Of a DNA stretch of 61,531 nucleotides, positions 32,850-59,187 are shown one piece after another. Every line of letters starts with the position of its first letter. The first letter of the stretch is position 1. Source of the DNA: Lysobacterales bacterium (lineage in GTDB: Bacteria > Pseudomonadota > Gammaproteobacteria > Xanthomonadales > Rhodanobacteraceae); contig JAFKMZ010000017.1 of assembly GCA_017305055.1 (NCBI GenBank), positions 1-61,531 on the forward strand, in the 5' to 3' direction. Both the position numbers and the translations under genes were made by a program. The notes below the pieces were generated by a model. The model saw only the letters and a list, made by a program, of their open reading frames with translations, searched no databases and was not told the origin of the DNA.

Positions 32850-32878
32850 TTGACTAAAATAGAATGACCATTCATTCT
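32850..32878 (+). promoter_or_regulatory. promoter and TetR-type operator of the RND efflux operon
   Basis: TTGACT (32850-32855) and CATTCT (32873-32878) are 17 bases apart and resemble -35 and -10 boxes. Overlapping the -10 is a perfect inverted repeat, AGAATGA-CCAT-TCATTCT (32861-32878), like the operators of AcrR/TetR-type efflux repressors. The operon's own TetR gene is at 37408. Confidence 0.7.
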
Positions 32879-32917
32879 TTACGTGTCAATCACCCCTTTC
32901 CCTTCCCGGATCAACCA

Positions 32918-34123
32918 ATGACTTCCCGCCTCGCCCACCTGGCCCTACTGGCCATCGCCGCCGCGCTGTTGCTTCCGGCGTGTACCGGCAAGGCCCCACC
33001 CGCGCAGGACGCCGCCGTCCCGGTGAGCGTGGTCACCCTGGAATCCCGGGCGGTGACCCTGACCCGCGAGCTGCCCGGGCGCACCACACCGTTCGCCATC
33101 GCCGAAGTCCGCCCCCAGGTTTCCGGCATCGTCCGCAAACGGCTGTTCACCGAGGGCGGCGAAGTCACGCAGGGTCAGCAGCTCTACCAGATCGAGGACG
33201 CCAGTTATCGCGCCGACTACAACAGTGCGCGCGCCGCCTTGGCCCGCGCCCAGGCCACCCTGGTCACGGCGAGATTGCGCGCACAGCGCAGCACGGAGCT
33301 GGTCAAGGTCGCCGCCATCAGCCGGCAAAACAACGACGATGTCCAGGCCACCCTGCACCAGGCCGAAGCCGACGTGAAAGCGGCCCAGGCGGTGGTCGAC
33401 GGTACGGGGGTGACGCTGGGCTACACCCGCATCAGCGCCCCCATTGCCGGCCGCATCGGCAAGTCCACCGTGACCCAGGGGGCACTCGTCAATGCGGGCC
33501 AGGCTTCAGCCCTGGCCACGATCCAGCAGCTCGATCCCATCTATGTCGACCTGACCCAGTCCAGCCGCGAGCTGCTGGCCCTGCGCAAGGGCCTGGCCTC
33601 GGGCGCGCTGGACAGCACCAACGGACTGCCGGTGAAGATCCTGCTCGAGGACGGCAGCCAATTCGCGCACGAAGGCAAGCTCGCCTTCTCCGAGGTGACG
33701 GTGGACCCCTCGACCGGCAGCTACGCGCTGCGCGTGGTGGTACCCAATCCCGACGACGTGCTGCTGCCCGGCATGTACGTGCGCGCGGTGATCGGCGACG
33801 GCCAGCGTCAACATGCCGTCCTGGTGCCACAGCAGGCGGTCACCCGGGACCCGAAGGGCAACACCTCGGCGATGCTGGTCGACCAGGACGGCAAGGTGGA
33901 AGTCCGTGCGGTGCAGGTCAGCCGCACCGTTGGCGACCAGTGGCTGGTCGATGCTGGCCTGGCGGCCGGTGACCGGGTCATCGTCGAGGGCCTGCAGAAG
34001 ATCAAGCCGGGCATGCCGGTGCAGGCCACCGAAGTGCATGCGGCCAGCGTGCCGGCCACCGCTGTGGACACGACTGCCACGCCACGGCCCGGCCCCGCCG
34101 CGAAAGCGGCCGGCAGCCGGTAA
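32918..34123 (+). CDS. RND efflux periplasmic adaptor (AcrA/MexE-like)
   Basis: A 401-residue membrane-fusion lipoprotein. It has a signal peptide ending in a lipobox (LLPAC, Cys about residue 24). Next come a lipoyl half ([23 protein letters not shown]), an alpha-hairpin (about 100-165, Ala/Gln-rich), the second lipoyl half ([14 protein letters not shown]), and beta-barrel and membrane-proximal domains. It links the inner-membrane pump to an outer-membrane channel. The ATG at 32918 begins the signal peptide. It is followed after 13 bases by the pump gene; no outer-membrane factor gene is nearby. Confidence 0.93.
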
Positions 34124-34136
34124 GGGAGCGCACGGC

Positions 34137-37100
34137 ATGGCACGCTTCTTCATCGACCGCCCCGTCTTCGCCTGGGTCATCGCGATCATCATCATGCTGG
34201 CCGGCGGCCTGGCCATCTTCACCCTGCCGGTGTCGATGTATCCGACGATCGCGCCGCCCACGGTGCAGATCATCGCCACCTACCCCGGTGCCTCGGCCAA
34301 GGTGGTGGAGGACTCGGTGACCCAGATCATCGAGCAGAACATGAAGGGCCTGGACGGCCTGATCTACTTCTCGGCCAACAGCTCGTCCAACGGCATGGCC
34401 ATGATCACCCTGACCTTCGACAACGGCACCGACCCGGACACCGCGCAGGTTCAGGTGCAGAACAAGCTGCAGCTGGCCATGCCGCTGATGCCGCAGGAGG
34501 TCCAGCGCCAGGGCATCAACGTCGCCAAGTCGAGTTCCGGCTTCCTGGCGGTGCTCGGCTTCTTCTCCGACGACGGCTCCATGTCCAAGGCGGATATCGA
34601 CGACTACGTCGGCAGCAACGTGGTCGATCCGCTCAGTCGCGTGCCGGGGGTGGGCAATATCCAGGTATTCGGCGCGAAATATGCCATGCGCATCTGGCTC
34701 GATCCGGACAAGCTCGACACGTACCGGTTGTCCACCAATGAAGTCACCGCCGCGATCCGCGCGCAGAACGCCCAAGTCTCGCTGGGCCAGCTCGGCGGCA
34801 CGCCATCGGTCAAGGGTCAGCAGCTCAACGCCACCATCTCGGCACAGGACCGCCTGCAGACACCGGAGCAGTTCCGCGACATCGTCGTGCGCAGCAACGG
34901 CGACGGCTCGGCACTCAGACTCGGCGACATCGCCCGCGTGGAAATGGGCGCGGAAACCTACGATTTCATCACCCGCTACAATGGCAAACCCGCATCAGGC
35001 CTGGCCATTTCGCTGGCCACCGGCGCCAATGCGCTGGACACCTCCGCGAATGTGCAGGCAGTCCTGGACGACCTCCGTCCCAACTTCCCGCACAGCATGC
35101 AGGTGGTAACTCCGTTCGACACCACGCCGTTCGTCCAGGTATCGATCAAGAACGTGGTCAAGACGCTGTTCGAGGCCATCGTGCTGGTGTTCCTGGTGAT
35201 GTACCTGTTCCTGCAGAACATCCGCGCCACGCTGATCCCGACCATCGCGGTGCCGGTGGTGCTGCTGGGCACCTTCGGCGTGCTGGCGGTGCTGGGCTTC
35301 TCGATCAACATGCTGACCATGTTCGCCATGGTGCTGGCCATCGGCCTGCTGGTCGACGATGCCATCGTCGTGGTCGAGAACGTCGAACGCATCATGACCG
35401 AGGAAGGGCTTTCGCCGCTGGAGGCCACGCGCAAGTCGATGGACCAGATCACCGGTGCGCTGGTCGGCATCGGTCTGGTGCTCTCGGCGGTCTTCGTGCC
35501 CATGGCCTTCATGTCAGGCTCCACCGGCATCATCTACCGGCAGTTCTCGGCCACCATCGTCTCGGCCATGGCGTTGTCGGTGCTGGTGGCCATCGTGCTG
35601 ACCCCGGCGCTGTGCGCGACCATGCTCAAGCCGCTCGGCAAGGGCGAGCACCATGTCGCCCACGCCGGCCTTGCCGGACGCTTCTTCAACTGGTTCAACC
35701 GCAGCTTCGACCGCACCAGTGACAACTACCAGCGCGGCGTGCGCGGCATCCTCGGTCGCCCGAAGCGCTTCATGGCGATCTTTGCCGGCATGGTCGTGGT
35801 CATGGGCGTGCTGTTCGTGCGCCTGCCCAGCTCGTTCCTGCCCGGCGAAGACCAGGGCGCCCTGCTGTCCCTGGTGCAGGCACCGGCCGGCGCGACCCAG
35901 GAGCGCACGGTGGCGTCGATCGAGAAGATCGAGAACTACTTCCTGGAACACGAGCAGGCCGCGGTCGAATCGGTGTTCAGCGTGCAGGGCTTCAGCTTCG
36001 CCGGCATGGGCCAGAACAACGGCATGGCCTTCATCAAGCTCAGGGATTGGAGCGAACGCAGCGCGCCGGAACTACGCGCCGATGCCGTCGCCGCCCGCGG
36101 CATGGGAGCGCTGATGCAGATCAAGGATGCCATGGCCTTCGTGTTCGCGCCGCCGGCGATGCCTGAGCTGGGCACGGCCGAGGGCTTCTCGTTCTTCCTC
36201 AAGGACAACGGCAGCCATGGCCACGAAGCCCTGCTGGCCGCGCGCAACCAGCTGCTGGGCGCCGCGGCGCAGAGCAAGCTGCTGGTGGCCGTGCGCCCGA
36301 ATGGCCAGGAGGATACCCCGCAGCTGCGTGTCGATGTCGACACGGAGAAGGCTGCGGCACAGGGCCTGACCATGGACGCGATCAACGGCACGCTGGCCGC
36401 CGCGTGGGGCGGACAGTACATCGACGACTTCATCGACCGCGGCCGCGTCAAGCGTGTCTACCTGCAGGCCGAACAGGAAGCGCGCATGGTGCCGGAGGAT
36501 TTCCGCCGCTGGTCGGTGAAGAACGCACAGGGTGAGATGGTGCCGTTCACGGCCTTCGCCAGCTCGCACTGGGAATATGGCTCGCCGCGCCTGGAACGCT
36601 ACAACGGCGTGTCGGCGATGGAGATCCAGGGCCAGGGTGCGCCTGGCGTGTCCTCCGGCGATGCGATGGCGGAGATCGAACGCATCGTCAGCGAACTGCC
36701 GCCAGGCTTCGGCATCGAGTGGACCGCGCTCTCCTACCAGGAACGGCAGGCCGGCGCGCAGACACCACTGTTGTACACGCTGTCCCTGATGATCGTCTTC
36801 CTCTGCCTGGCCGCCCTGTATGAGAGCTGGACGGTGCCGACCGCCGTGCTGCTGGTGGCGCCATTGGGCATCCTCGGCGCCACCCTGGCGAACACCCTGC
36901 TGGGCATGGAGCGCGATGTGTATTTCCAGGTGGCCATGCTCACCACGGTGGGCCTGACCAGCAAGAACGCCATCCTGATCGTCGAGTTCGCCAAGGCCAA
37001 CCTGGAAAGCGGCATGGAGCTCATCAGCGCCACCATGCACGCGGTGCGCGACCGCCTGCGCCCGATTATCATGACTTCGCTGGCCTTCGGCCTGGGCGTG

Positions 37101-37304
37101 CTGCCGCTGGCCATTGCCGCCGGCGCCGGCTCCGGTGCGCAGCGCGCGATCGGCACCGGCGTGCTGGGCGGCATGGCGGTCGGCACCCTGCTCGGCGTGT
37201 TTTTCATCCCGCTGTTCTTCGTGGTGGTGCAGCGCCTGTTTGCCGGCAAGGCGCAGGCCTCGGAGCCCACGCCCGCCGCCACAGGCGAGGACACCCATGA
37301 GTAG
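34137..37304 (+). CDS. RND efflux pump, HAE1 family (AcrB/MexF-like)
   Basis: A 1055-residue proton-driven multidrug exporter with 12 membrane helices and two large periplasmic loops. The proton-relay aspartates are at residues 407 and 408 ([16 protein letters not shown]), the same numbers as in AcrB, and the partner Lys is at 943 (LTSKNAIL). The start [14 protein letters not shown] is canonical and follows TAAGGGAG. It works with the adaptor upstream and presumably a TolC/OprM protein encoded elsewhere. It is regulated by the TetR gene 103 bases downstream. Confidence 0.95.
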
Positions 37305-37360
37305 ACTCCCTGCCGCGCCGCGCATACTGACCACTGCGGCACCGACCAGGCAAACCTGCT

Positions 37361-37386
37361 GCCACGCACGGCAACCCGTGCGTGGC
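37361..37386 (+). terminator. strong hairpin between pump gene and TetR gene
   Basis: A perfect 11-base-pair stem, GCCACGCACGG and CCGTGCGTGGC, encloses a four-base CAAC loop. It lies in the 103-base gap after the pump stop and 22 bases before the TetR start. No T-tract follows, so it may be a Rho-assisted or partial terminator, or an mRNA-stability element that lowers expression of the repressor relative to the pump. Confidence 0.5.
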
Positions 37387-37407
37387 GGCCCGGATGGGTA
37401 GGAGACC

Positions 37408-38025
37408 ATGAGCGTGAAACCCCTCAGCAGCAAGGCAGAGGCCCGCATCCATGCGCAACGCCGGCGCATCCTGCTGGCCGCACAGCAGTGCTTCATCGAG
37501 TACGGGTTCCACGGCGCCAGCATGGCCAGCATCGCCGAGACTGCCGGCATGAGCGCGGGACTCATCTACCGCTACTTCGAAAGCAAGAACGCCATCATCC
37601 TGGCCATCGTGCGCCAGCAACTGGAAATGCTGCGTGGCGACCTCAGCCTGAACCGCAAGGTCGACCTGGCAGCGGAAATCGCCGCACACTATGGGACAGC
37701 CAACGCCCAGCGCGAACACGGCATGAACGCCGCGCTGCTGCTGGAGATCTCCGCCGAGGCCACCCGCGATCCCGCCGTGGCGGCCGCCCTGGACGAATTT
37801 GACGACACGCTGCGTACGGGCCTGATCGATTGGCTGTCCCGCCCAACGGGCAGCGGCGGCCAGGGCCTGCCCGCCACGCTGGCACCGCGGCGGGCGTTGA
37901 TCCTGCAATGCCTGGTCGAGGGCCTGAAGGTGCGGGAGACCCGCGAGCCGGATCTGGATCGCACGCTGCTGGCCACGGCGCTGCACGAGGTCGTGCCACT
38001 CCTGCTCGCGGCGCCCCGCAAATGA
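37408..38025 (+). CDS. TetR-family transcriptional repressor
   Basis: A 205-residue TetR/AcrR regulator. The N-terminal helix-turn-helix spans about residues 12-58 (RRILLAAQQCFIEYGFHGASMASIAETAGMSAGLIYRYF split over helices 1-4), followed by an all-helical ligand domain. The ATG follows TAGGAGACC. It is the third gene of the RND operon and is expected to bind the AGAATGA/TCATTCT operator at 32861, giving autoregulation of pump and repressor. Confidence 0.92.
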   Translation: MSVKPLSSKAEARIHAQRRRILLAAQQCFIEYGFHGASMASIAETAGMSAGLIYRYFESKNAIILAIVRQQLEMLRGDLSLNRKVDLAAEIAAHYGTANAQREHGMNAALLLEISAEATRDPAVAAALDEFDDTLRTGLIDWLSRPTGSGGQGLPATLAPRRALILQCLVEGLKVRETREPDLDRTLLATALHEVVPLLLAAPRK

Positions 38026-38134: not shown

Positions 38135-38863
38135 TCAGAAGCTGGACAGATAGACCGACAGCGCTTTCAGGTCATCGTCGTCCAGGGTCTGCGCGACACC
38201 TTGCATGACCTTCGCGTTGCTGCTGCCGGCCCGCGCACCATCCTTGTAGTCGGCCAATTGCTTGGCCAGGTACAGGCTCGGTTGCCCGCGCAGGTGCGGG
38301 AAGGTGGCCCAAGGCGGCTGCGGCGCGCTGCTGCGATGCGGCTCGGGGCCCATGCCCGTCGGGCCATGGCAACCCTGGCAGGGCGGGATGCCCTTGGCCG
38401 GATCGCCGGCCAGATACAACTGTTCCCCGCGCGAACCGGCCGCTCCTGGTCCGGCAGCCTTGGGCGGCATGGCGGCGAAGTAAGCGGCAAGGTCGCGCAT
38501 GTCGGTGTCACTCAGCATCGTCGCCTGGGCCGTCATGACCGGATCGTTGCGCTCACCGGCGTGGAACTCGCGCAGCTGGACGTACAGGTAGGTGGCCGAC
38601 TGTCCTGCCAGGTTCGGGAAGTTCGGCGCAATGCCCACCCCCTGCGCGCCATGGCAGGCCGCGCAGACGGCAGCCTTGCCGGCACCCGCCTGCGCGTCGC
38701 CGTGGATTGGCTGCATGCGACGCAGATCCAGCGGCGCGGCGGTTGGCGTGGCCATCGGCGCGGCGTCGGCGACATCTGCGGCCTGCTGCGCCACGGTGCC
38801 GTCGGTGACGGCAGCCGCCAGCACCAGTACGCCGGTCAGCAGGATCTTGACGTGTAGAGTCAT
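38135..38863 (-). CDS. diheme c-type cytochrome (c4-like)
   Basis: A 242-residue periplasmic electron carrier. It has a signal peptide (residues 1-25) and two cytochrome c domains with heme motifs CAACH (about residue 67) and CQGCH (about residue 162). Each is followed by a Pro-rich segment with candidate Met ligands. It is the last gene of a three-gene operon, 10 bases after the MtrB/PioB-like porin gene. It probably shuttles electrons between the decaheme cytochrome in the outer membrane and the inner-membrane respiratory chain. Confidence 0.9.
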   Translation of the reverse strand: MTLHVKILLTGVLVLAAAVTDGTVAQQAADVADAAPMATPTAAPLDLRRMQPIHGDAQAGAGKAAVCAACHGAQGVGIAPNFPNLAGQSATYLYVQLREFHAGERNDPVMTAQATMLSDTDMRDLAAYFAAMPPKAAGPGAAGSRGEQLYLAGDPAKGIPPCQGCHGPTGMGPEPHRSSAPQPPWATFPHLRGQPSLYLAKQLADYKDGARAGSSNAKVMQGVAQTLDDDDLKALSVYLSSF

Positions 38864-38873
38864 GCCGGCCCCC

Positions 38874-41489
38874 TCACAGCCTGAGCTCGAGCATCAGCCC
38901 AACCATGCTGACGTCGTAGTGCAGTTGCCCACCGCGGTCGGTGTAGATGCGGTGGTCGTAACTGAGCGTCTGCTGGAAGCCGGCGTAGTGCCAGTCGCTG
39001 AAGGCTCCGGTCTGGTAGCGGCCAAAGAGGCGCACGCCCACGCTGGGATTGACGCGAAAGCTCAAGCCGAGATCCAGGGTGTTGCTGCGGTACTTGTTGT
39101 CGGGGAACCCGAGGCCGGCCGCCGCCACGCCGGCCGGGTCGCGGTAGGCCAACGCGCCGATTCCGGCATAGCTGTAGCCCACGTGGCCGCTCGAGCCGGT
39201 GTAGTTGTAGCTGAGGTCGAAGCGCATGCGGCCAAAATCATGGCTGAAGCTCAAACCCGCATCGCGGTTGCTCTCGCGGTCGTATTCCCACCACTGGTTG
39301 GCGTAGGGATACAGCGGGCCACCCAGATGCGGATCGGTCTGGCCGATGTTGGCGCCGACCAGGGCCTCGTTGTCGGCGACATTGCTGATGCCCATGCGCG
39401 AGCCTTCGATGCCCACGTAGGCATTGAGCGTCGTCGTCGGGGCCGGCTGCCAATCCCATTGCAGGGTGGCCCCGGTGGTCTGCGTGTCCTGGCGGCCGAT
39501 CAAGGCGGCGTACTGGTCGCGGTTGCCATAGAACGTGGCGGACAGGGTCGCCGACTCGCCCCAGGGGACGGTGACGATGGCGCGGGCCTTGCTCTCGGTG
39601 CGGTCCGAGAGGTCGTACTTGCGCATCTCGGCCACCGTGTGCGCCGGCAGGCCAACCGCGGGCATGACGAAGCCAGGAAGTGACTCGGAGAAGAACTGCT
39701 CGTACGGATCGTAATGGTAGGCATCGCCGTCGCGGCTGGCGTACTCCCAGCTCAGCCGCACCGTGGCGCCAACGACATCGCGGCTGACCCAGTCGAACTT
39801 GATGCGCTGGTCGTCGACGCGCTTGCGCTCGCGGTACTTGGGCTGGTTGTGGTCGTAGGTGTAGGTGACGCCAAGGGAGGACTTGCGGCCAAACTGCCAG
39901 TCGCCGCCCAGTTCGAGGATGGAATCGGTATAGCCGAACGGTGCATTGCGCACGGTGAAATTGGACGACCAGAACATGGGGTTGGTCGGATCGAAGAGGC
40001 CGACCTCACCCGGCACCACACTGCCCTGGGAGCCGTTCTCGGAGATGTAGCCGTACTGGCCCGTCAGCGGGTTGTAGGCGAGGTAGCGGGTCTTGTTGTT
40101 CTCGCGATACCAGCGCAGCCCGGCGTGCCAACCAAAGGTCGGTGTGGGCCGGAAGGTCGCGCGTACATCGAGGAGGCCGGTGTCGATGCGCGCATTCGCG
40201 TTGCGCTGCGACAGCGCCGCCGGTGTGTTCCAGTTTGCGCACTGGAAGGTGAAGTCCGCCGGCGGTGCGATGAAGACGCCGCCGACGCCGGTGCAGCTGG
40301 TCGGCGGCAGCAACGCGTCGTTCTGGCGCATCGTGCCCCAGGCGCCGGCCATGGTGAGCTGGCCATTCCCCTTCAGCTCGCGCGACAAGTCCAGGCGCAC
40401 GTTGTGGTAGTCGTTGTCGGGCTCCAGCGAAAACTGCCCGAACTTGATGTCGGCGACCTGAGGCGTGCCGACCACGTTCCACAGCGCAAACGGACTCTGG
40501 AAGTTCAGGTGGTCCTTGTGGTTGCGGAAGAATGAGCCGTTGTAGGTCGCCAGGAAGTGCCAGAGCTTGCCCACGCGGCGCAGGCTGAGGTTGACGTCGG
40601 TGGTGCGAAAGTCGATCGGACGCACTGTCTCCAGCACGCCGCCGTTGTCCGGGAAGGGATAATTGAAGAACATCGACCCGCCCCACAGGCGCGTGCCGCT
40701 GCGCTTCTCGTTGGTGATGCCGGCCGAGCCGATCCAGTCGCGAAACAGTGTTCCCTCGTAGCTCAGGCCCGCGCGGGTACGGGTAAGCCCGATGTCACGC
40801 CGGGGTTCGGCAGCCGAGACCGCGGCGACCTGGGCCGGGGTGCTGGCACCAGGCACCAGCGGTGCCGGCAGCGTCAAATCGCTCGTGCCCACGCCGTTCC
40901 AGATGGGGAAGGCGCTGGTGGACACGGTGTGTGGCATGTCGCGGTAAAAGCCCTCGATGCGGAAGCTGCCGTACCTGCCGCCACGCAGGCGGTAATACTG
41001 GTCATTGCCGCTGATCCGGCTGCCGCGCAAATCCACGTAGCTGCCGGTCTGGCGGTTGTTGAAATCCAGCGCAAACAGGCCCAGCACGGCGCCGCTCTTC
41101 CAGCCGTCGTACTGGCGGAAATACTCGGCGTCGCGGTCCCCGCCGACATGCAGATAGCCAAACTCGAGCAGCCCGTCCCAGGTCCAGTCACCCTGCCCCA
41201 GCGGTTTGCCCGGGTCGACCAGCGGCGGATACGGATACAGCATGCCGGTCGGCGTGCGCAGCATGCCGGCGTGCAGGTAGGACATGCCGTCGGGGTCCGC
41301 CGGATACAGCATCGGCGTCCAGCCGCGCGGGTCCAGGCCATTGCCATACTGCATGTCGCCGACCCGCATGGTGCCGCTGGTGTCGCTGGCCAGTGCCGGT
41401 TGCGCACCCAGGACACCGGTCAACAGGCCCAGGGCCAATGCCAGGGTCAGCGCCCTGGGTGCCATGCGGTTTGCTTTCAGCGCACGCAT
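38874..41489 (-). CDS. MtrB/PioB-family outer-membrane porin for a decaheme cytochrome
   Basis: An 871-residue outer-membrane beta-barrel. It has a signal peptide (residues 1-34, ending ALA), a glycine/aromatic-rich plug or linker, and then many amphipathic strands ending in a C-terminal aromatic/hydrophobic strand. The overall pattern (DFNNRQTGSYVDLRGSR, NDQYYRLRGGRYG and repeated YRENNKTRYLAYN-like strands) is that of MtrB/PioB proteins, which sheath a decaheme cytochrome across the outer membrane. The gene starts 11 bases after the decaheme gene stop, with GGAGG in the gap. It is longer than Shewanella MtrB (about 700 residues) and closer to PioB size. Confidence 0.9.
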   Translation of the reverse strand: MRALKANRMAPRALTLALALGLLTGVLGAQPALASDTSGTMRVGDMQYGNGLDPRGWTPMLYPADPDGMSYLHAGMLRTPTGMLYPYPPLVDPGKPLGQGDWTWDGLLEFGYLHVGGDRDAEYFRQYDGWKSGAVLGLFALDFNNRQTGSYVDLRGSRISGNDQYYRLRGGRYGSFRIEGFYRDMPHTVSTSAFPIWNGVGTSDLTLPAPLVPGASTPAQVAAVSAAEPRRDIGLTRTRAGLSYEGTLFRDWIGSAGITNEKRSGTRLWGGSMFFNYPFPDNGGVLETVRPIDFRTTDVNLSLRRVGKLWHFLATYNGSFFRNHKDHLNFQSPFALWNVVGTPQVADIKFGQFSLEPDNDYHNVRLDLSRELKGNGQLTMAGAWGTMRQNDALLPPTSCTGVGGVFIAPPADFTFQCANWNTPAALSQRNANARIDTGLLDVRATFRPTPTFGWHAGLRWYRENNKTRYLAYNPLTGQYGYISENGSQGSVVPGEVGLFDPTNPMFWSSNFTVRNAPFGYTDSILELGGDWQFGRKSSLGVTYTYDHNQPKYRERKRVDDQRIKFDWVSRDVVGATVRLSWEYASRDGDAYHYDPYEQFFSESLPGFVMPAVGLPAHTVAEMRKYDLSDRTESKARAIVTVPWGESATLSATFYGNRDQYAALIGRQDTQTTGATLQWDWQPAPTTTLNAYVGIEGSRMGISNVADNEALVGANIGQTDPHLGGPLYPYANQWWEYDRESNRDAGLSFSHDFGRMRFDLSYNYTGSSGHVGYSYAGIGALAYRDPAGVAAAGLGFPDNKYRSNTLDLGLSFRVNPSVGVRLFGRYQTGAFSDWHYAGFQQTLSYDHRIYTDRGGQLHYDVSMVGLMLELRL

Positions 41490-41500
41490 TGCCGCCTCCG

Positions 41501-42646
41501 TCACTTGTGGAACTTGGGTCCGGACGGATTGTTCGACCCGTGGATGTTGGTATGGCAACTGAGACAGCCACGCCCCATGATCCGCTCGTCAGGATGCGGG
41601 CCCGTGCCAAGCCCGGCCGCCGTCTGCAGGTCGTTCGGGTGCCGGGTCATGGTGTGGCACTGCTGGCACAGCATCGGGATCGGCGCCACCAGCAGGGTCT
41701 GCTGGTTGGAACCGTGCACGTCGTGGCAGTTGAGGCAATTGGCCCGCACCGGCGCGTGCTCGAACAGGAACGGTCCACGCTTCTCCGCATGGCAGCCGTA
41801 GCAGGTCTCGTTGACGGTGTCGGTCTTCAGCAGCGGCTTGGTGATCGAACCGTGCGGGTTGTGGCAATCGGTGCACGCCATCTGCCCTTCCGGCAGCGGC
41901 ATGTGCGAGCGGCGATTGAACTTGGCGCGGATGTCCTGGTGGCAGGTCGAGCACACCTCGTTGATCGAGGACTTGGCCAGCACGCCTTCGGGCGACAGCT
42001 TGGCCATCGGGTTGTGGCAATCGGTGCAGGACAGGCCGCGGTTCTGGTGCACCGAACCGGTCCAGTGCTGCCGGGCGCCGCCGGCATGGCAGCTAAGGCA
42101 CACGCCGGCCTGTACCGCCGGCGGAGTCTTGGCGTCGTGGGTAAAGGCGATGATCGAACCGGGCTTGGTTGGATCCTTCGCGTGCACCGAGCCCGGACCA
42201 TGGCATGCCTCACAGGCAGCCTGCGGACCGGTGTTGCCAGCCCCGGCGCGGAACGAGGCCACATGCAGCGAGTGTGAGGCCTGGATGTTTTCCTGCGCAT
42301 GGCAGGCCACGCAGGTCTTGGCGCCTACGGCGTCGGCATCCGGGGCCAGCGGATTGACTGGAATCAACGCGCCGTCGAAGGGTGTCGCCGGGCTGACGTC
42401 TGCCGCCGCGAAACCCGGATGCCCAGCGGGCGTTGCCGCGCCGGCACCCATGTCGGTGGCCGGCAACATCCGCTCGATGTCGCTTTGCGTGAGCTTGGTC
42501 GTGGGGCCGGATGCCGGGTGGGCCACGGCCACGGGAGCCGCGGCCGGCATCTCCTGGGCCACGGCATCACGCGGTTCCGACAGCAGGCCCGCCAGGCCGA
42601 TCGCCAGGCACCCCATGAGCACGACAAATAAGGAAAACACTCGCAT
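41501..42646 (-). CDS. decaheme c-type cytochrome (MtrA/PioA/DmsE family)
   Basis: A 381-residue periplasmic/outer-membrane cytochrome. After an N-terminal signal segment (residues 1-31) and a heme-free stretch to about residue 110, ten CXXCH motifs follow: CVACH, CEACH, CLSCH, CTDCH, CSTCH, CTDCH, CYGCH, CLNCH, CQQCH and CLSCH. Ten hemes in about 270 residues matches MtrA/MtoA/PioA/DmsE. Such proteins carry electrons through an MtrB-type porin. It is the first gene of the operon with that porin and a diheme cytochrome. No extracellular MtrC/OmcA-like cytochrome is present in the window, as in Fe(II)-oxidising Pio/Mto systems. Confidence 0.94.
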   Translation of the reverse strand: MRVFSLFVVLMGCLAIGLAGLLSEPRDAVAQEMPAAAPVAVAHPASGPTTKLTQSDIERMLPATDMGAGAATPAGHPGFAAADVSPATPFDGALIPVNPLAPDADAVGAKTCVACHAQENIQASHSLHVASFRAGAGNTGPQAACEACHGPGSVHAKDPTKPGSIIAFTHDAKTPPAVQAGVCLSCHAGGARQHWTGSVHQNRGLSCTDCHNPMAKLSPEGVLAKSSINEVCSTCHQDIRAKFNRRSHMPLPEGQMACTDCHNPHGSITKPLLKTDTVNETCYGCHAEKRGPFLFEHAPVRANCLNCHDVHGSNQQTLLVAPIPMLCQQCHTMTRHPNDLQTAAGLGTGPHPDERIMGRGCLSCHTNIHGSNNPSGPKFHK

Positions 42647-42800
42647 CTTCTGCAGTCCCCTGGCTGACCTGGATCACCCTCTGCGTCCCCCCAAGGCGCC
42701 CTGCTTTCGCTACGCAGCCAGTATTCACTCGCCGCCGCCGATTGATAAGCCCGTCAAGTTGCGTTTATTGTTCAAGATGTAAGGACAATCCTACAAAATC

Positions 42801-42824
42801 GTGCAATGCAGCAATACATTGCAC
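42801..42824. promoter_or_regulatory. LysR-type dyad in the decaheme/LysR divergent region
   Basis: GTGCAATG (42801-42808) and CATTGCAC (42817-42824) form a perfect 8-base inverted repeat with an 8-base spacer, which contains the T-N11-A pattern of LysR sites. It lies 45 bases upstream of the LysR start and 155 bases upstream of the decaheme gene. It therefore probably serves control of both. It also argues that the LysR start is 42869, not the earlier in-frame ATG at 42806 inside the dyad. Confidence 0.6.
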
Positions 42825-42868
42825 GGTGCCGCCGGAATCCGCTCAACGCAACCCTGCCAGGACCCCCG

Positions 42869-43828
42869 ATGCAGGATCTGACCGATATCCATTACTTCGT
42901 CCAGGTGGTCGAGCTGGGCTCGTTCACGGCCGCCAGCAAGGCACTCGGCGTCGCCAAGTCGCAACTGAGTTTCCGCGTGGCGCGTCTGGAGGCCGGTCTT
43001 GGCGTGCGCCTGATCCAGCGCACCACCCGGCGCTGCAATGTCAGCGAGATCGGCCGTCGCTACTACGAGCAATGCAGGCTGCTGCTGGCTGCAGCCGAGC
43101 AGACCCAGCGTGTCATCGACGATGCCCAGGCCACACCACGCGGCCGCATCCACGTGGCCTGTCCGGTCCTGTTCGCGCAATTGTTGCTGGCGCCGGTTCT
43201 CGTCGATTTCCTGAAACAACATCCGGATGTGCAGGTGGACCTGGACATCTGCCACCATCAGGTCGACGTGATCGCCGGCGGCTACGACATCGCCTTCCGG
43301 GTGCGCGATTCGATCAAGGATTCCAGTCTGGTCATGCGCAGCTACGGCATGGATCCGCACGTCCTGGTAGCCAGCCCGGCGCTGTTGCAACGGCTGGGTT
43401 GCCCAAGCCAGCCTCAGGAGCTCAAGGGCCTGCCCAGCGTCGACGTGATCAGCGCCGAAGGCCGGCATTTCTGGCATCTGCAGGCCGCAGACGGCCGTAT
43501 CCAGCAGGTCGAACACCATCCCAGCCTGATCAGCGATGATCTGCACGTGTTGTACCAGGCCGTGGTGGGCGGCATCGGCATCGCCCAGCTGCCGCAATTT
43601 GTCTGCCGGGCGGCCATTGCCGCCGGCCGGCTGGCGCCATTGCTGCAGGCATGGTCATTGCCGGCGGGCAACGTTCACGCCGTCTACCCCTCACGCCACG
43701 GCCACACCCCGGCGCTGGACAGCTTCCTTCAGTTCGCTGCGCAATACCTGCCGAACGTATTGCAGCGCACGCAGCAAGGCGAGCCGGCGGAAAACACGCA
43801 ACCACTCGGCAGACTGTTTGCCGATTGA
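42869..43828 (+). CDS. LysR-family transcriptional regulator
   Basis: A 319-residue LTTR with its helix-turn-helix at residues 5-60 (GSFTAASKALGVAKSQLSFRVARLE) and effector domain at about 90-295. The ATG at 42869 follows AGGA. It is divergent from the decaheme cytochrome operon, with a strong dyad in the shared region, so it is the obvious candidate regulator of that electron-transfer system. The inducer is unknown. Confidence 0.92.
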   Translation: MQDLTDIHYFVQVVELGSFTAASKALGVAKSQLSFRVARLEAGLGVRLIQRTTRRCNVSEIGRRYYEQCRLLLAAAEQTQRVIDDAQATPRGRIHVACPVLFAQLLLAPVLVDFLKQHPDVQVDLDICHHQVDVIAGGYDIAFRVRDSIKDSSLVMRSYGMDPHVLVASPALLQRLGCPSQPQELKGLPSVDVISAEGRHFWHLQAADGRIQQVEHHPSLISDDLHVLYQAVVGGIGIAQLPQFVCRAAIAAGRLAPLLQAWSLPAGNVHAVYPSRHGHTPALDSFLQFAAQYLPNVLQRTQQGEPAENTQPLGRLFAD

Positions 43829-43960: not shown

Positions 43961-45616
43961 TCAGTTCGCCCTGCCCCTCGGGTCGACCAGGAAACGTGGT
44001 GGCTGCCGCCCATCGGCGAACTGCCAGGCGCTCAGATAGGCCAGCCTCAGGATCCTGGCCATCTTCGCGTAGTCGATCTTTTCGGCCGTATCCGTAATGC
44101 GGTGGTAGTCCGGATGGAATCCGGTAAACCACCAGAACGCAGGGATGTTCTTCAGCACGAACGGGAATTGGTCGGAGCGGAACAACACGTTGTTGACGGC
44201 GTCATGATCGAAGCGATCATCGAGGACCAGTCCCACGTGGGCGTTCTGTTCACCGACCGTGCGTCGGTAGTCCGGGCTGTAGACCGATCCGATCAGGTTC
44301 AGCCGGTTGGAGGTGTCGGCCGGCACTTCCATGATGCCGTCGGTCTGGATGCTGGGCTTCTCGTCGCGACCGATCATGTCGAAGTTGATGACGGCGCGGG
44401 TCGTCGCCAACGGGCGCAGCGGGTGGGCGGCCATGTAATAGGAGCCAAGCAGTCCGGGTTCCTCCGCGCCGAATACGACGAACAGGATCGAGCGCTTCGG
44501 CCTCGCCGGGTTTGCCATGAAGGCGTGGGCGAGCGCGACCACGCCCGCCGTGCCGGACGCATTGTCATCGGCGCCGTGAAAGATCGCACCATCCTTGTTT
44601 TCGCCATGGTGGTCGTGATGGCCGCTGATGATGATCGTTTCTGCCGCCAGTGCGGGGTCCGAACCCTGCAGCAGGCCGGCCACGTTCCAGGTCGTCCCCT
44701 TCTTTTCCACCCGCGAGGCAAAGTGCAGGCTGACCTCGGTGTCGGGAAGTGCGCGCGACTCCGGCTTGAGATCCTTGTCGATCGCCATCTGCAATTGGAC
44801 CGGCGTGCTGCCGCTGGTGGCCAGGAGCTCGGTCATGACCTCGGACGAGATCAGCATCGACGGAATGTGGATCTGGTCGTCCGCCAGTGCGAACGTTGCA
44901 TGCTCGGGGTGCGGCTTGCCCTTGTCTGCGTTGGCGTAGCGGGCGCTCCGCTGCATGGGTGACATGGCGCTGCCGGAGGGAACTGGCGCGATCAGTACGG
45001 CGACCGCGCCATGCGCCTGTGCCGTGAGCAACTTGACCCGGGCTGCGGCATTGCGTGTGTTGCCGTTGCCGTTGAAGATGGAATTCGGATCGTTCTCCTG
45101 TGGTTCCCCGGTGAACACCACGACAATCCTGCCCTTGACGTCCACGTTCGCGTAGTCGTCGTAGTGCAAGCCCGGGTCGGTGATGCCGTACCCGGCAAAC
45201 ACCACCGGTGCGTGCACGTCGAGGTCGGCAGGAAACCGACCGGAAACCTCCGGCGTTTTCCATGAACTGTGCTTGCCCTTGCGCACGAGCACCAGTCGGG
45301 TCGCTTCGCTGTCAGGCGAGTACGCGATGAGCGGCACCGGTTGCAGGAAACTGGCCTTGCCCTGCGCATCTGTCGCGGCGGGCTTGAGCCCCGCCTTGGT
45401 GAATTCGGAAACGACCCATTGCACGGCAATGTCGTCGCCCTGCTCCATGGCCAGACGGCCTTTCATGGCGTCCGATGCCAGGAAGCCGATATCGGCGCGC
45501 AAGTCCGCCTCACGGATTTGTGCCAGTCCCGTCTGCACGGGTGCCGGAACCGCATCCGTCGCGGTCACGGCCAAGGGCAGAAAACAGGCTAGCGCGACAA
45601 TCAGGCTCCGGTACAT
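43961..45616 (-). CDS. secreted M28-family zinc aminopeptidase with PA domain
   Basis: A 551-residue exported peptidase. The signal peptide is residues 1-20. A protease-associated insert lies at about 130-300 (VVFAGYGITDPGLHYDDYA). The M28 catalytic core carries zinc ligands in SGHHDHHG, GADDNASG, GAEEPGLLGS and NFDMIGRD, and a C-terminal His in HPDYHRITD. It removes N-terminal residues from peptides in the periplasm or outside the cell. The ATG at 45616 follows AGGAA. It is downstream of the TonB receptor on the same strand, consistent with peptide utilisation. Confidence 0.93.
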   Translation of the reverse strand: MYRSLIVALACFLPLAVTATDAVPAPVQTGLAQIREADLRADIGFLASDAMKGRLAMEQGDDIAVQWVVSEFTKAGLKPAATDAQGKASFLQPVPLIAYSPDSEATRLVLVRKGKHSSWKTPEVSGRFPADLDVHAPVVFAGYGITDPGLHYDDYANVDVKGRIVVVFTGEPQENDPNSIFNGNGNTRNAAARVKLLTAQAHGAVAVLIAPVPSGSAMSPMQRSARYANADKGKPHPEHATFALADDQIHIPSMLISSEVMTELLATSGSTPVQLQMAIDKDLKPESRALPDTEVSLHFASRVEKKGTTWNVAGLLQGSDPALAAETIIISGHHDHHGENKDGAIFHGADDNASGTAGVVALAHAFMANPARPKRSILFVVFGAEEPGLLGSYYMAAHPLRPLATTRAVINFDMIGRDEKPSIQTDGIMEVPADTSNRLNLIGSVYSPDYRRTVGEQNAHVGLVLDDRFDHDAVNNVLFRSDQFPFVLKNIPAFWWFTGFHPDYHRITDTAEKIDYAKMARILRLAYLSAWQFADGRQPPRFLVDPRGRAN

Positions 45617-45962
45617 GGTTGAGTTCCTGTGTGGGGGTGGGCGGAAACAAGGCAACGGTGGCAGATCCCGTCAAACACTGCGGCAAACTGGCCGGCTGAT
45701 GTCCGTGCGGACGAAGAGCGGCGCGGTCCGGGCACGTCTTGCGCACGATCGGGACGTCCTTGTCCACGACCAGACGCTGATTGCCCAAGTGGGACTTCAT
45801 GCAAATCCGGGTCCACACATGAAACCCCTGGGTTGGACAAATCAGGCCCCACCATCAAGAAGTCAGTGGGGTCGTCGCCAAGCAGGGGGAGCCGTTCAGC
45901 GTCCCCAGGGGGCGTGGCGGCGAAGGCCTCCTGCATGACGTCATACAACCTCCCTGACCCAC
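45617..45962. other. intergenic, no gene seen
   Basis: This 346-base gap lies between the M28 gene and the TonB receptor gene. Frames here give no recognisable product on either strand. It presumably holds the M28 promoter, but I could not assign boxes with confidence. Confidence 0.4.
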
Positions 45963-48912
45963 TCAGAAACTGACCGTGACGCGACCCCAGTAATAGCGGC
46001 CGATGTAGTCGAAGTTCGTCGGGTTGAGGTCATAGTACCCAACCGAATTGTACGGTGGCAGTTTGTCGAACAGATTGTCGACACCAACATCGAGACGCGT
46101 ATGCAGTGACTTGAAGTCATAGCCGAGCTGAATGTCGTGGTAGAGCGTCGAGGGATAGTCGAAGAAGACGCCATCCAGGTGCGAACCGGCCGGATGCACA
46201 TCCTGGTCCGGAGCAGGCGAACCCACCCGGAACTTGTTGATGAAGCGCATCTTCCAGGAAGCGCTCCAGTTGTCCATTTGCCAATTCACCCTGCCCTGCG
46301 CGCGAATGCGGGGGAACAGGCAGCCGACGCCTGGACATACCGACCCTTGAGGTGAGCCGCCAGGCAGATCATGGCCGGCATCGTGGTAAACCGTATTTCC
46401 TGGGGTACCCGGCGCGGTGTTCTGGTCATAACGCTTCAAATAGGTTGCGTTGACCAGGAAGGAGAACGAGCCAATCGCCGTGTCCGGCAGCCTGTATACC
46501 GCTGACCAATCCACGCCACCGACGTTGATGCTGCCCAGGTTGCCTGTCGGCTCGATGGTCTGCACGGCGATTTGTCCCTGTTGCGGACCACTGGGAATAC
46601 GCTTGATCAGTGCGCAGTAATCCATCTGCCCGGCCGTGCACAAATTCAACACGCTTTGCAATCCCACCCGGGAGATGATGTTGTTCAGATACAGATGCCA
46701 CGCGTCGACCGTCACCGACAGCCCGCTCAACCACGACGGGCTGTAGACCGCGCCGACGTCGAACGTCTTGCCCGCCTCGGGCTTGATCGGAAACCCGGCA
46801 TATTTGGAACCCGACGAGGTAACCGACAACTGGTTGTTGCTCGTTGTCTGCGTGTCGATGAAGCTGCCGTCGGTGGGAACGTTGACGCAGCCATGATTGA
46901 CCGGGTTGCCCGTATAGCCATCGCATGGGTCGCTCGCGGCGTATGGCGAATCGAAACCCGCCGCACCAAACACTTCATTGATGTCCGGTGCCCGGATGAC
47001 CTCGGCTACCGTTCCGCGCAGCAGCAGATCGTCGATCGGCTTCCACTCCACCGCAAACTTCTTGGTGTTGGCACTGCCAAACGTGCTGTAACGGGAATAG
47101 CGGTCACCGATGGTCACGTTCAATGAGCGAACGCCGGGAAGGTCGGTGAGCACCGGCACAAACAGTTCACCGTAGAGTTCCTTGACGTTGAAGCCACCCT
47201 GCAACCCCGATGCGCAGCTCGTGCCAAGAATGCAGGTGCCCGTGTTCGGGTCAAGCACCAGCATCGGGTCAATCCGCGATACCGTACGCTCTTTCCGGTA
47301 AGTGGCCCCCAAGGCCAACTGGGCCGTCCCGGCCGGCAGGTTGAACAAGCCGCCATTCACATTGGCACGCCATATCTTCTGCTGGCTGTACGAGTTGTTG
47401 ATTGCAGGCACTTCCGCCGCAAGCAACGCCGCCACCGAGCCTGGAGCGTCCAGAACGAAAGGATTGAAGTTCCCATCGCAGCCCGGGATCGGCGCACCAG
47501 GCGTACCGCACGTAACCACACCGGTCGCCGGATCCAGGAACGACGGGCCGAGATACAGCTTGGCCGTGTTCGGCAGCCCGGTATTCGTTCTCACCTGACT
47601 GCTGTGGCCATAATCCATGCCGACATCCCAGTTCCAGTCCTGGTCGAATATCATCAGGTCACCCTTGAAGCCCGTACTGAACTGTCCAACGGAGACTGCA
47701 TAGTTGGTTCCGCGCGGCCCCCCTGACGCCAGGCGCGCCCCGTATTTGAAACCTTTCGAACTGTAATTGACGCCAAACGGGTTCCAGTAGTTGTCGGGGG
47801 ATATATCGACACCATGGGCGCTGGTAAAGACACCCGGCGCCAACTGGTGGGCAGCCTTGGTCTTGCTCACATAGGCATCCAGATAGGCAGAGACATGATC
47901 CGTCAGTGCATACGACCCAAGTACGAAGAGATTGGTGCGTTCCTGCGGCTGGGAGATAATGTTGGTCGGCGCGAAATTGTACTTGTCGGTATTTGGGCCG
48001 CTGGTCTGATAGCAATGGTAGTCAGCAACTGGATCCATGCCATCCGTACCTGGGTTGCGTGCCAGAAAGTTCGACTTGCAACCAGGAAATGATGACTTGA
48101 AGGCAGGCGGGATTTGCAAATAGCCGTATGGAGACGATGTGGAACCACCGATGAATTGCTGAATGGGTCGCGTCGGGGTACCGCTGACTGTAATCGTGTT
48201 CTTGGTGAAGTCACGGTCAGCGCCCAGGATGGCCTCCTGCCTGTGGTATTCAACACCCCCGACGATGCTGCCCCTGTCAGAGGTCTGACCGAACGTGAAC
48301 GTATAACCCTTCCGCGCACCATCGTTGTGTCCTGACTTGCCGTAGTCCACGGAGAATTGCGCACCCTGATAATTCTTGCGCGTGATGAAGTTGACCACAC
48401 CACCAATCGCATCGGAGCCGTAGATGGCCGTCGCTCCCGTCGTCAGCACCTCGATACGCTCGATCATGCTGGAGGGAATGCTGTTCACGTCATCACTGAC
48501 CACGCGATGGCCGTCGACCAGGATGAGCGAGCGCTTCGACCCAAGGCCGCGCAAACTGATGGTCGTGCTGCCGGGACCACCGCCATTGTTGACCTGGGTA
48601 TTCTGGTGGCCACCCGTCATGGAAGGCAGATCCTGGACCAGATCGCCCACGGTCATTTTGCCACTGGCGACGATGGCAGCCCGATCGACGGTAACTACCG
48701 GGTTGGCTGTTTCCAGATCGACGCGCCGAATCAGCGACCCCGTCACCACGACGCTCTTCAATTCCTTCGCGTTCTGCGCATTGGGGGGGGGCGCCCTGCG
48801 CGCTGGTCACATCCTGTGCCAGCGCCGTACCCGATGCGGCCATGGCCAGCACTGTGCCCAATGCCAGTGCCGCATGCACAGCCGATGAAAGGTTCTTTAT
48901 CTTGGGATTCAT
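45963..48912 (-). CDS. TonB-dependent receptor, frameshifted near the N-terminus
   Basis: An outer-membrane active transporter of about 982 residues once a one-base shift is corrected. The start at 48912 encodes a typical signal peptide (ALALGTVLAMAASGTALAQ). After QGAPP the frame is lost in a run of nine C (on the coding strand; G at 48783-48791). The other frame then continues NAQNAKELKSVVVTGS and the plug domain (SLRGLGSKRSLILVDGHR, GSDAIGGVVNFI). The 22-strand barrel ends FDYIGRYYWGRVTVSF. Eight C would restore the frame. It may be phase variable, mutated or a sequencing error. Neighbouring peptidases suggest oligopeptide import. Confidence 0.88.
48783..48791. repeat. nine-base poly-G/C tract inside the TonB receptor gene
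   Basis: A run of nine G on the plus strand (nine C in the gene) falls between the signal peptide and the plug domain. Tract lengths of 8 or 11 put the two halves in frame; the 9 seen here does not. Simple tracts at this spot are the classic substrate of slipped-strand mispairing, and are also a common site of assembly error. Confidence 0.85.
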
Positions 48913-49222
48913 TCGAGTTTCCTGGATTTGAGGCAAAAGCTTCCGAACAGGCCGCCACCAATGTCAGTGGTATGGCCCGGGCTGGATGTGCATTACTCAG
49001 GTGACCCCGTGTGCCGCAGGTCAGGGGATTACGCCGCACGCAACCGTCGGCGTATTCAACCCTCGGCCGCAGCAGCGGACTTTGGCCCTGCCCGCGCCAA
49101 TGCAGGTCTTATGCGGTTCCCGCAGGCAGAGCCGTCCCGCGGTGTATCGGCGCCGAGGGACGATGCCGCGAATTCCAATGCGAACACCGCGCGATGACAG
49201 GGACGTCCTGTGACCCCACGCA
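48913..49222. other. intergenic, no gene seen
   Basis: This 310-base gap lies upstream of the TonB receptor gene and after the S51-like gene stop. Short plus-strand frames have no recognisable product. It must contain the receptor promoter; boxes could not be assigned. Confidence 0.4.
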
Positions 49223-50743
49223 TCACGAAGCGCCGAGAAGCTGGTCAAGAATGCGTTCAGACATCTGGCGCGCGTCGGCGTCCGCGTCGTTGGTCAGGAT
49301 GACGACTGTCACGTGACGGGAGGGAACGCGAACGAAGGCTGCCCGCTTGCCGTCTGGCGTCGCATAGGACGCCAGGCGCTGGAGGCCCCGGTACGTGTCC
49401 GCCGTCCATCCTTTTGCGTAGTCGACGTTGGGCCACGTCGTCGGCACCTCGAGGCCGAGTGAGAGGCGGTAGAGCTCGTCAACGTTGGATTGGATTTCGT
49501 CGTTGCTGGCGACGGTCCGATGCATGCCCACCGCTTTGGAGAGTTGCGTGACGCAACCCTGAAGTCGCGATGGCGCAGCGGCCGCCGCCCTGCCCTCGTT
49601 CGCGCTGGTCCCGGGGGGCAGCTGCGCGCAAAGCGCCTTGAACACTGCCGTGATGTGCCCGAGCTGGAACTGCGGCACCGTCGTTCTCGGCATGTACCGG
49701 GGCTGCGCAGGGATACCGAACGCACGGTCGACGAGCACGTTGCCGTCCCGCGCCACGAGCACCGTGGCGCCACCCGCGGCAGGTGCACTGTATTTCCCGA
49801 GCAGTGCCGTGATGTCCGGCGGCTTCACCGGCGAATGGTCAGCCGCACGGCCGATGACCCGCCGTGCATACAGATCGTACCGGTCGCCGGGATACAGCGT
49901 CAGGAACGGAGCTCCCGGGTCCGTCGGGTCATTGCCGTTGTAGACAAACGCCTTGTTGCGCCCGACGATGTGCGCAGTGTCACCCCGGATGACCCACGCC
50001 GTTCCCTCGTCCTCCGAGATACCCAGCAAGTGCGGATACTTCGGAATGATGGCGTTGGCCAGGTCGGGCAGGCGCGACCGGGCAACAACGTGCTGATCGA
50101 TACCCACGTTCCGGAGATAGCCGAAGCCCGTATCGGACCCGGGATAGTCCATGATGGAGTTGTCTTCGGATGGCGCGCCGCGAACCAGCAGGTCGCCCTG
50201 GATGGAAGCGCCAGCCGAAGTGCCGCCGATGACGCCTCCACGCTTGAGCACCTCCCTGAACGCGCGTTCGGTCTGCGTCCCGCCGTAGTCCTGGACGAGG
50301 AGATATTGGCGGCCGCCGTCAAACCAGATCCCACCGGCCTTCTTGATGATCGCGACAAACGCGTCACTGTCCGCGATTTTGCGGTCCTTGGTGAAGAGCA
50401 CGGAGACATTCCGCGCACCGTTCTCGCGCAAGCGCTGGCCTGCGCTCTCCGGCGCCTTGCCGTCGGCGCTGGGGACACCGGCGTTGGGCACGTCGAGGAT
50501 GAGCGCATCCGGCCCGCCAGCGGCATCGATAAAGGCCTTCCATACCCTGGGCCCAATGGCGCCGCCACCCACCACGACGAGTGTCCCCCTGGCTGGTCCG
50601 ACTTTGACCGGACCGCTGGCCAGTGGCCTGGCCTTGAACGCGGCAGGAGCTGGCGGGGTTGCCGGCTGTGCCACAACGGCAGCGGGAATGGCTACCGCAA
50701 GGACAATGGGCAGGACGATGGTGACGATCGTGTTCTTGTGCAT
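49223..50743 (-). CDS. cyanophycinase-like S51 hydrolase fused to a degenerate serine-hydrolase domain
   Basis: A 506-residue exported protein with a signal peptide (residues 1-26). Residues 52-310 resemble cyanophycinase/peptidase S51, with the nucleophile Ser176 in GGTSAGASIQGD and the DYPGSDTGFGYL segment. These enzymes cleave beta-aspartyl or cyanophycin-type bonds. Residues from about 325 (ATVLVARDGNVLVDRAFGIP) to the end resemble a class C beta-lactamase/serine hydrolase. Where that family has SxxK, this protein reads HITA (363-366), and the domain is shortened, so it is probably inactive and may bind ligand. The ATG at 50743 was chosen for the signal peptide; TTG at 50830 is less likely. 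Confidence 0.82.
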   Translation of the reverse strand: MHKNTIVTIVLPIVLAVAIPAAVVAQPATPPAPAAFKARPLASGPVKVGPARGTLVVVGGGAIGPRVWKAFIDAAGGPDALILDVPNAGVPSADGKAPESAGQRLRENGARNVSVLFTKDRKIADSDAFVAIIKKAGGIWFDGGRQYLLVQDYGGTQTERAFREVLKRGGVIGGTSAGASIQGDLLVRGAPSEDNSIMDYPGSDTGFGYLRNVGIDQHVVARSRLPDLANAIIPKYPHLLGISEDEGTAWVIRGDTAHIVGRNKAFVYNGNDPTDPGAPFLTLYPGDRYDLYARRVIGRAADHSPVKPPDITALLGKYSAPAAGGATVLVARDGNVLVDRAFGIPAQPRYMPRTTVPQFQLGHITAVFKALCAQLPPGTSANEGRAAAAAPSRLQGCVTQLSKAVGMHRTVASNDEIQSNVDELYRLSLGLEVPTTWPNVDYAKGWTADTYRGLQRLASYATPDGKRAAFVRVPSRHVTVVILTNDADADARQMSERILDQLLGAS

Positions 50744-50826
50744 TGCAAGCCCCCAGGTCTGATGCGATATGGATCCATCCGAGGTCGCAGCGGGCATAGT
50801 CCTTTGCCCACGCCGCCAGCCAGAAC

Positions 50827-51519: not shown

Positions 51520-51536
51520 CGTCGTATGCCCCTGGC

Positions 51537-52559: not shown

Positions 52560-52585
52560 AGTCTTCTCCAAAGAAAGTTTCCGGA

Positions 52586-57246: not shown

Positions 57247-57375
57247 GGCCTGCCCTCTTCCGGTGGTCTGACACACTCAACCAAATGCGAAACAGCTGCC
57301 AGCGAGTCCCGCGCCTGAAAATCCATACCGGCGCCGGCATGGTCAGCCCGACGTGGTCAGGCTGTGTCGCTGCCA

Positions 57376-58956: not shown

Positions 58957-59187
58957 GGGAACCCCTTGATGGCAAAGCTGCTGCAACCGGCTTCCAGGCG
59001 TGAATGCCGCGATCAACAGGCATCTGTGCCAGCGACCCCGGGGTTCCGCGGCGCAGCATCCGCAGGCTCCTGCTGCTCGCGCGTTGCCCCTGCTGGTGAC
59101 ACAATCGATGCAGGGATTGCCGATATCGATCGAGGCTAGTCCCGGACTGGAGCTCGCGGAAGACTTTCGAACGGGAAGCACTATTTC

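Follow-up and report, generated by a model that had tools for sequence, protein, structure and literature searches.

A conserved decahaem-porin-cytochrome c4 operon beside PioAB in Rhodanobacter and its relatives: a candidate conduit for electron uptake

To which of the known outer-membrane electron conduits does an MtrAB-like operon of the Rhodanobacter group belong, and in which direction would it carry electrons? The question is raised by a stretch of 61,531 nucleotides (the window, contig JAFKMZ010000017.1 of the Lysobacterales assembly GCA_017305055.1), in which a decahaem cytochrome (A), an MtrB/PioB-type porin (B) and a dihaem cytochrome (C) form one minus-strand operon, with gaps of 11 bases between A and B and 10 bases between B and C. 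An earlier note, made from the letters of the DNA, had described a ten-CXXCH cytochrome, an 871-residue porin and a dihaem cytochrome with these gaps as an MtrAB/PioAB-type conduit; open reading frame (ORF) and motif reading confirmed the layout, as listed below. We slightly favour the reading that the operon is a PioAB-like conduit for electron uptake, leading from an outside donor through A in B to cytochrome c4 and on to an oxidase.

42646-41501, minus strand: A, decahaem c-type cytochrome of the MtrA/PioA/DmsE superfamily, 381 aa, ten CXXCH
41489-38874, minus strand: B, MtrB/PioB-type outer-membrane barrel, 871 aa, start ATG at 41489, without CXXC
38863-38135, minus strand: C, dihaem cytochrome c4 as identified by sequence, 242 aa, two CXXCH

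The conduit assignment of A and B is carried by family models, structure matches and a fold prediction. A gave Pfam doubled-CXXCH matches, scored 258 bits on the NCBIfam model TIGR03508 'DmsE family decaheme' (cut-off 192) and matched MtrA of the Mtr complex in a sequence search of the PDB (6r2q_A, E 5.5e-62); its first haem cysteine is residue 112, and its signal peptide was called by eye. B matched Pfam MtrB_PioB (E 5.2e-94) and MtrB (6r2q_B, E 1.8e-14), while its score on TIGR03509, 238.7 bits, fell narrowly under the cut-off of 240.05. The model of B, predicted from an alignment of 34 (predicted local distance difference test score, pLDDT, 70.7; predicted TM-score, pTM, 0.70), contains 26 strands of at least 10 residues by manual count, the number also reported for PioB and MtoB models in passages of PMC10654088. 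Its top Foldseek match in the PDB was MtrB 6r2q_B (E 1.2e-36, TM 0.66/0.87, the 0.87 on the target), with the runner-up reaching only E 2.6e-9, so that the large barrel anticipated by the earlier note was borne out, together with its conduit assignment. All ten proximal histidines of A are invariant across 75 tree rows and eight further histidines are present in at least 90% of them, a pattern in keeping with bis-His haems, with eight candidate distal ligands of the ten expected.

The third protein was identified by its sequence as a cytochrome c4, in agreement with the c4-like partner proposed earlier. In the PDB it matched cytochrome c4 6q2u (E 5.7e-42), with the c4 structures 1etp and 8uf3 also found, and the match spans the whole dihaem domain (residues 55-240). 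C is a class I c cytochrome by Pfam and has two such haem domains, His/Met ligation being read from the alignment, in which its methionine positions align with those of another c4 of the same genome. That other c4 lies on contig C42, is 43% identical to C and sits between DsbA-like and EngB-like genes, which we take to be the usual c4 surroundings; C is thus distinguished as a second, operon-bound copy. A PdsA-type identity was also considered for C and was judged unlikely: C is 26–29% identical to two dihaem proteins that adjoin mtrCAB (L121 and L123; L numbers denote loci), and a branch of 2.8 separates these from C and the other c4. Only these two PdsA-like rows, typed by context, entered the tree, in which long branches make finer placement unsafe.

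Conservation of the trio was assessed in 61 named loci, of which L205-L211 were left out of the trio counts as distant or unrelated multihaems, and the search for C covered ORFs of at least 150 aa with a threshold of E 1e-15. The A-B-C order was observed in 44 of the 54 named loci with A, and four others are cut by contig ends; this recurrence is not chance, and A-B-C is a conserved unit. B is present in 50 of the 54, the other four ending at contig ends, and C accompanies A and B in 44 of 50, with exactly two CXXCH in each C. The A-B gap varies between -41 and 36 bases, although some ORFs were given their first possible start and may be overlong, and the B-C gap is at most 14 bases in 43 of the 44 loci. 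The six A-B loci without C come from four Aromatoleum, one Azoarcus and one Burkholderiaceae metagenome-assembled genome (MAG). The Aromatoleum/Azoarcus loci are L197-L200 and L202, and the A-B pair of L197 is adjoined by a different LysR (YafC/TtdR-like), a ketoacyl synthase and an MMPL exporter.

Genera that carry the trio include Rhodanobacter, Dyella, Frateuria, Luteibacter, Fulvimonas, Dokdonella and Pseudoxanthomonas. At E 0.001, A matches were obtained in 57 of 147 family genomes and 16 of 26 genera; 53 of the 57 are at least 58% identical, three (42–44%) are of another type and one is marginal. The distribution is patchy even within the genus, with A in 6 of the 11 same-genus genomes listed, host included. 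B matches were found in 91 of 299 genomes of the order at E 0.001, many of them weak, and 27 of 398 phylum-sample genomes exceeded the TIGR03508 cut-off, while a plasmid search returned two records only, from Photobacterium and Shewanella. The host assembly (3.5 Mb, 97% complete) holds a single A match, and Rhodanobacter sp. FW104-R8 and R. fulvus Jip2 have the A proteins that lie nearest to its own in the tree; the host is Rhodanobacter or a near relative, which narrows the Rhodanobacteraceae affiliation suggested earlier. An A-B-C set was also seen in a Desulfovibrionaceae MAG (L196, A 54% identical), reflecting either lateral transfer or a mis-binned contig, and one Rhodanobacter genome (G093) carries two A-type decahaem operons, one with LysR and one amid an extracytoplasmic function (ECF) sigma factor and a subtilase (L094 and L095).

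Two unrooted trees, with group labels taken from neighbouring genes and with long branches on some rows, were used to place the operon. The tree of A (75 rows) revealed a split between Mtr, Dms and Mto on one side and Pio, the A-B-C loci and related A-B loci on the other (support 100/98), with A-B-C as one clade (100/100) and the seven Pio rows on their own branch (94/92). The tree of B, made by a quick method from 54 of the 69 extracted porins, every second A-B-C row having been dropped and six loci lacking a clean porin call, gave the same split (Shimodaira-Hasegawa-like approximate likelihood ratio test, SH-aLRT, 99; Pio branch 100). Because the Pio rows form their own branch in both trees, the sequences place the operon beside PioAB and outside the Pio clade. 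In the approximately unbiased (AU) test on A, joining the A-B-C loci and their kin to Mto was rejected (p 0.0009), and they are separate from Mto in both trees, so Mto membership was discarded; the MtrAB-family assignment of the earlier note was thereby refined, its Pio side retained and its Mto side dropped. The family name 'DmsE' is probably misleading for A.

Certain labels in these trees call for care. L125 bears the label Mtr yet groups within the Mto part in both trees, and Mtr and Dms interleave; L129 and L143 received the labels 'Mto_MtoC' and 'Mto_CymA' without the nine-haem or tetrahaem gene having been seen (the L143 contig ends there). Among the Pio rows, the third genes of L223, L224 and L228 matched no Pfam family at 1e-5 and were called PioC-like by four cysteines and position only, that of L225 was called by likeness, and none was identified in L226, L227 and L229. 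Mto-type sets also occur in the family: three genomes (L142, L143 and L144) carry a one-haem cytochrome, a decahaem about 40% identical to A and a porin, which fall with Mto in both trees. An adjacent CymA-type tetrahaem gene is present in L142 and L144, and the L143 contig ends after the porin.

Compared with PioABC of the iron-oxidising phototrophic alphaproteobacteria Rhodopseudomonas palustris TIE-1 and Rhodomicrobium, the operon shares a decahaem, an MtrB/PioB porin and a periplasmic carrier in one operon, the lack of an extracellular cytochrome, the same side of both trees and an extra N-terminal stretch in A. It differs in that its third gene encodes a cytochrome c4 whereas PioC is a high-potential iron-sulfur protein (HiPIP), in lying outside the Pio clade, in having LysR in a subset of loci and in the presence of RuBisCO in only 1 of 23 A-B-C carriers; moreover, the N-terminal extra of A is about 45 residues over MtrA, against about 200 in PioA according to passages of PMC6831781. 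The PioA extension is cleaved. MtoAB-MtoD-CymA/ImoA of Sideroxydans lithotrophicus likewise pairs a decahaem-porin conduit with a small periplasmic cytochrome, but is a separate lineage, in which L122, L142 and L144 have a CymA-type tetrahaem gene and L127, L128 and L130 a nine-haem one, neither being found in the window. A and B are homologous to MtrA and MtrB of 6r2q, as in MtrCAB and DmsEFAB of Shewanella and MtrCAB-PdsA of Vibrio-like bacteria; unlike those systems, the host assembly has no MtrC/OmcA or CymA match, the window ORFs scanned, both operon neighbours included, hold no molybdopterin reductase, B lacks the CXXC found in the L111 and L112 porins, and C is nearer c4 than PdsA-like dihaems. 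The operon is read here as a PioAB-like conduit whose carrier is c4 instead of a HiPIP.

The rest of the host genome was searched for redox partners. PF03264 (NapC/NirT/CymA) had no match in the host assembly. Strong matches were found in 8 of the 46 family genomes searched (10 pass E 0.001, the other two being the decahaem itself): five A-B-C carriers, never beside the operon, one genome that lacks A, and two Mto-type genomes, in which the gene adjoins the decahaem of the conduit. In the third Mto-type genome that was searched, the contig stops after B. For MtrC/OmcA (TIGR03507), no match was found in the host assembly and none above cut-off in the 46 genomes, although the model detected both mtrCAB-bearing f25 control genomes; this agrees with the claim of the earlier note that the lack of an outer-surface cytochrome favours uptake. 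RuBisCO had no match in the host. Five COX1-type matches were obtained, one of them within a ccoN-ccoO-ccoP set with all three above cut-offs, a cbb3 oxidase, and the strongest, on contig C39, is probably an aa3 oxidase.

In the mechanism that we slightly favour, A would sit within the 26-strand barrel B and carry electrons across the outer membrane without a surface cytochrome, and C would accept them in the periplasm and deliver them to the aerobic chain at its high-potential end, cbb3 or another haem-copper oxidase. Outside donors may be Fe(II), Fe(II) minerals, or reduced humics or phenolics, and since the host has no RuBisCO match, uptake would be auxiliary to heterotrophic growth. We infer the inward direction from the Pio side of the trees, the lack of any CymA-type quinol dehydrogenase or surface cytochrome match, the high-potential c4 partner and the cbb3 drain. 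Cytochromes c4 have potentials of about +200 to +350 mV. According to passages of PMC13390432, the haem potentials of MtoA extend from about +100 mV to about -400 mV, and a carrier at +155 mV has been argued to feed the terminal oxidase in Sideroxydans. From these ranges, transfer from A to c4 would be downhill if A resembles MtoA.

Several points weigh against this reading. The AlphaFold model of A was too poor for use (pLDDT 47), so the fit of A in B is putative. The host assembly is 97% complete, so that the absences noted above are not absolute, and strong PF03264 matches do occur, away from the operon, in 5 of the 23 A-B-C carriers. Cytochrome c4 also takes electrons from bc1, so that reverse flow would be possible if A were of unusually high potential. 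Joining the A-B-C loci and their kin to Mtr/Dms stays at p 0.06 in the AU test and is not rejected. Lastly, according to the abstract of PMC13390432, the Sideroxydans operon partner MtoD does not bind MtoA, so operon company is no proof of contact.

The same p value and the bc1 route bear on an outward conduit, in which quinol would feed bc1, c4 and then A-B to reduce an external acceptor of fairly high potential, such as Mn(IV) or oxidised humics or phenolics, and so serve as an outlet for excess electrons under oxygen shortage. Dihaem carriers (PdsA) do accompany reductive MtrCAB clusters, in passages of PMC8805035 and in L121 and L123, and C scores 50.7 bits on the NCBIfam PdsA model, far under its cut-off of 330. 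However, C resembles cytochrome c4 more than it does the L121 and L123 dihaems, the host has no CymA/NapC or MtrC/OmcA match, and passage from c4 to a low-potential decahaem would probably be uphill; we therefore regard outward flow as rather unlikely. Ordinary membership of Mto (Fe(II)-oxidising) or Dms (DMSO-reducing), to which the TIGR03508 score above cut-off, the NCBI name 'DmsE' and the unrejected Mtr/Dms grouping would point, appears very improbable: the Mto placement is rejected, the Mto-type sets of the same family are a distinct lineage, and the window ORFs scanned hold no molybdopterin reductase, whereas each of the three Dms loci scanned carries one.

It is also conceivable, but improbable, that the conduit serves redox protection, oxidising or removing Fe(II), phenolics or redox-cycling antibiotics at the surface in concert with efflux pumps. 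An AcrAB-like resistance-nodulation-division (RND) efflux set (adaptor, AcrB-like pump and TetR, 32864-38025) adjoins the operon, L106/L178 (one locus; L106:11503-16343) and L181 have adaptor and pump genes downstream of C on its own strand, and the lack of a RuBisCO match in the host would suit such a role. Nevertheless, pump genes are near the conduit in only 4 of 37 loci, window included, in varied order and strand, and those of the window converge on the operon and are thus not co-transcribed with it. Electron uptake through a PioAB-like conduit remains the reading that we slightly favour over the field of these alternatives.

Regulation of the operon was considered from the divergent LysR gene and the stretch between it and A, with these features:

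42869-43828, plus strand: LysR-type regulator, divergent from the operon; the ORF opens at 42806
42767-42789, no strand: proposed LysR operator ATTGTTCAAGATGTAAGGACAAT, consensus ATTGTTC-N9-GGACATT
42800-42825, no strand: perfect 9-base dyad CGTGCAATG-N8-CATTGCACG, not conserved in orthologues

The ATG at 42869 is the probable LysR start rather than the in-frame 42806, the Pfam HTH_1 match starting at residue 25 of the longer ORF, and with this start the 9-base dyad falls in the intergenic region. A divergent LysR is present in only a subset of loci: 13 of 37, 16 of 32 named loci, and 17 of the 43 of the operator scan, in which ten further loci were scored as 'no LysR' from the gene-context list only. 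Alignment of the LysR-linked intergenic stretches yielded ATTGTTC-N9-GGACATT, which occurs with 0–3 mismatches of 14 in all 17 LysR-linked loci, window included, against 5–7 mismatches in 24 of the 26 loci without LysR (exceptions L185 and L181) and mostly 5–6 in shuffles. The consensus was drawn from the same, related loci and is partly circular, yet the contrast is still sharp. In the sense used, the window operator is the weakest match among the 17, at 3 mismatches, but on the other strand it has 1. The ATTGTTCAAGATGTAAGGACAAT site is the sole zero-mismatch match of ATTGTTCN9GGACAWT in the assembly, and a tolerance of 2 mismatches gave 8 matches, located at 7 places, compared with 4 for a reversed control; the simplest reading of these matches is that LysR may be a single-target regulator. 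By binding this site, LysR would switch the operon in response to a signal.

The earlier note had placed the divergent LysR across a perfect 8-base dyad. The divergence stands, while the arms are of 9 bases, not 8, and the half-site pattern GCAAT-N4..16-ATTGC was found in none of 32 stretches upstream of A in the named loci; the site at 42767-42789 tracks LysR instead. When the intergenic stretch was put through 5000 plain shuffles, 52 of the resulting sequences contained a 9-base dyad with a spacer no longer than 14, and the window dyad was ruled out as the LysR operator because it is not conserved.

Other genes around the conduit were noted in the window and in related loci. At 43961-59484, the minus strand of the window encodes peptidases, a TonB receptor, an Asp/Glu racemase, a PALP enzyme and a sortilin-like protein, perhaps a peptide or amino-acid uptake cluster. 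Upstream of LysR in L106 (a Lysobacterales MAG, 1061-4658) lie the small subunit of an FAD-sorbitol dehydrogenase and a three-CXXCH protein with cytochrome c domains, a possible sugar-oxidising electron source. Neighbours in L095-L098, L104 and L105 include an ECF sigma factor, a subtilase, FolE2, an aminotransferase and an acetyltransferase (not each in all six), and the genes common among these loci gave no functional lead.

In the open-licence PMC literature, no description of the A-B-c4 trio in these hosts was found among the matches listed, and the trio is not described in passages of PMC10654088, PMC6831781, PMC8805035, PMC4245776, PMC4503921, PMC9732548 and PMC13390432. For the Rhodanobacter from culture KS, passages of PMC5566968 report Cyc2 and a porin-multicopper oxidase pair, and no MtrAB. 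In passages of a 2019 study, PioA-like decahaems with extended N termini were confined to phototrophs, a length that A may fall short of.

The finding bears on a whole family, 53 of whose 147 genomes encode a related decahaem of at least 58% identity, accompanied by the porin and c4 where named loci were read. Bacteria of the Rhodanobacter group are known as aerobic heterotrophs. With many of the loci coming from isolates, electron uptake by ordinary soil bacteria is therefore testable, and the conserved operator provides a handle on the signal sensed by the cell. The c4 partner would offer a simple route to oxygen with no quinone step. We tentatively propose, with somewhat less confidence than uptake by this operon itself, that a sister branch of the PioAB uptake conduits, with c4 replacing HiPIP, lets soil heterotrophs such as Rhodanobacter, Dyella, Frateuria and Luteibacter burn extracellular electrons with oxygen via haem-copper oxidases. 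If true, Pio-type uptake reaches beyond phototrophs.

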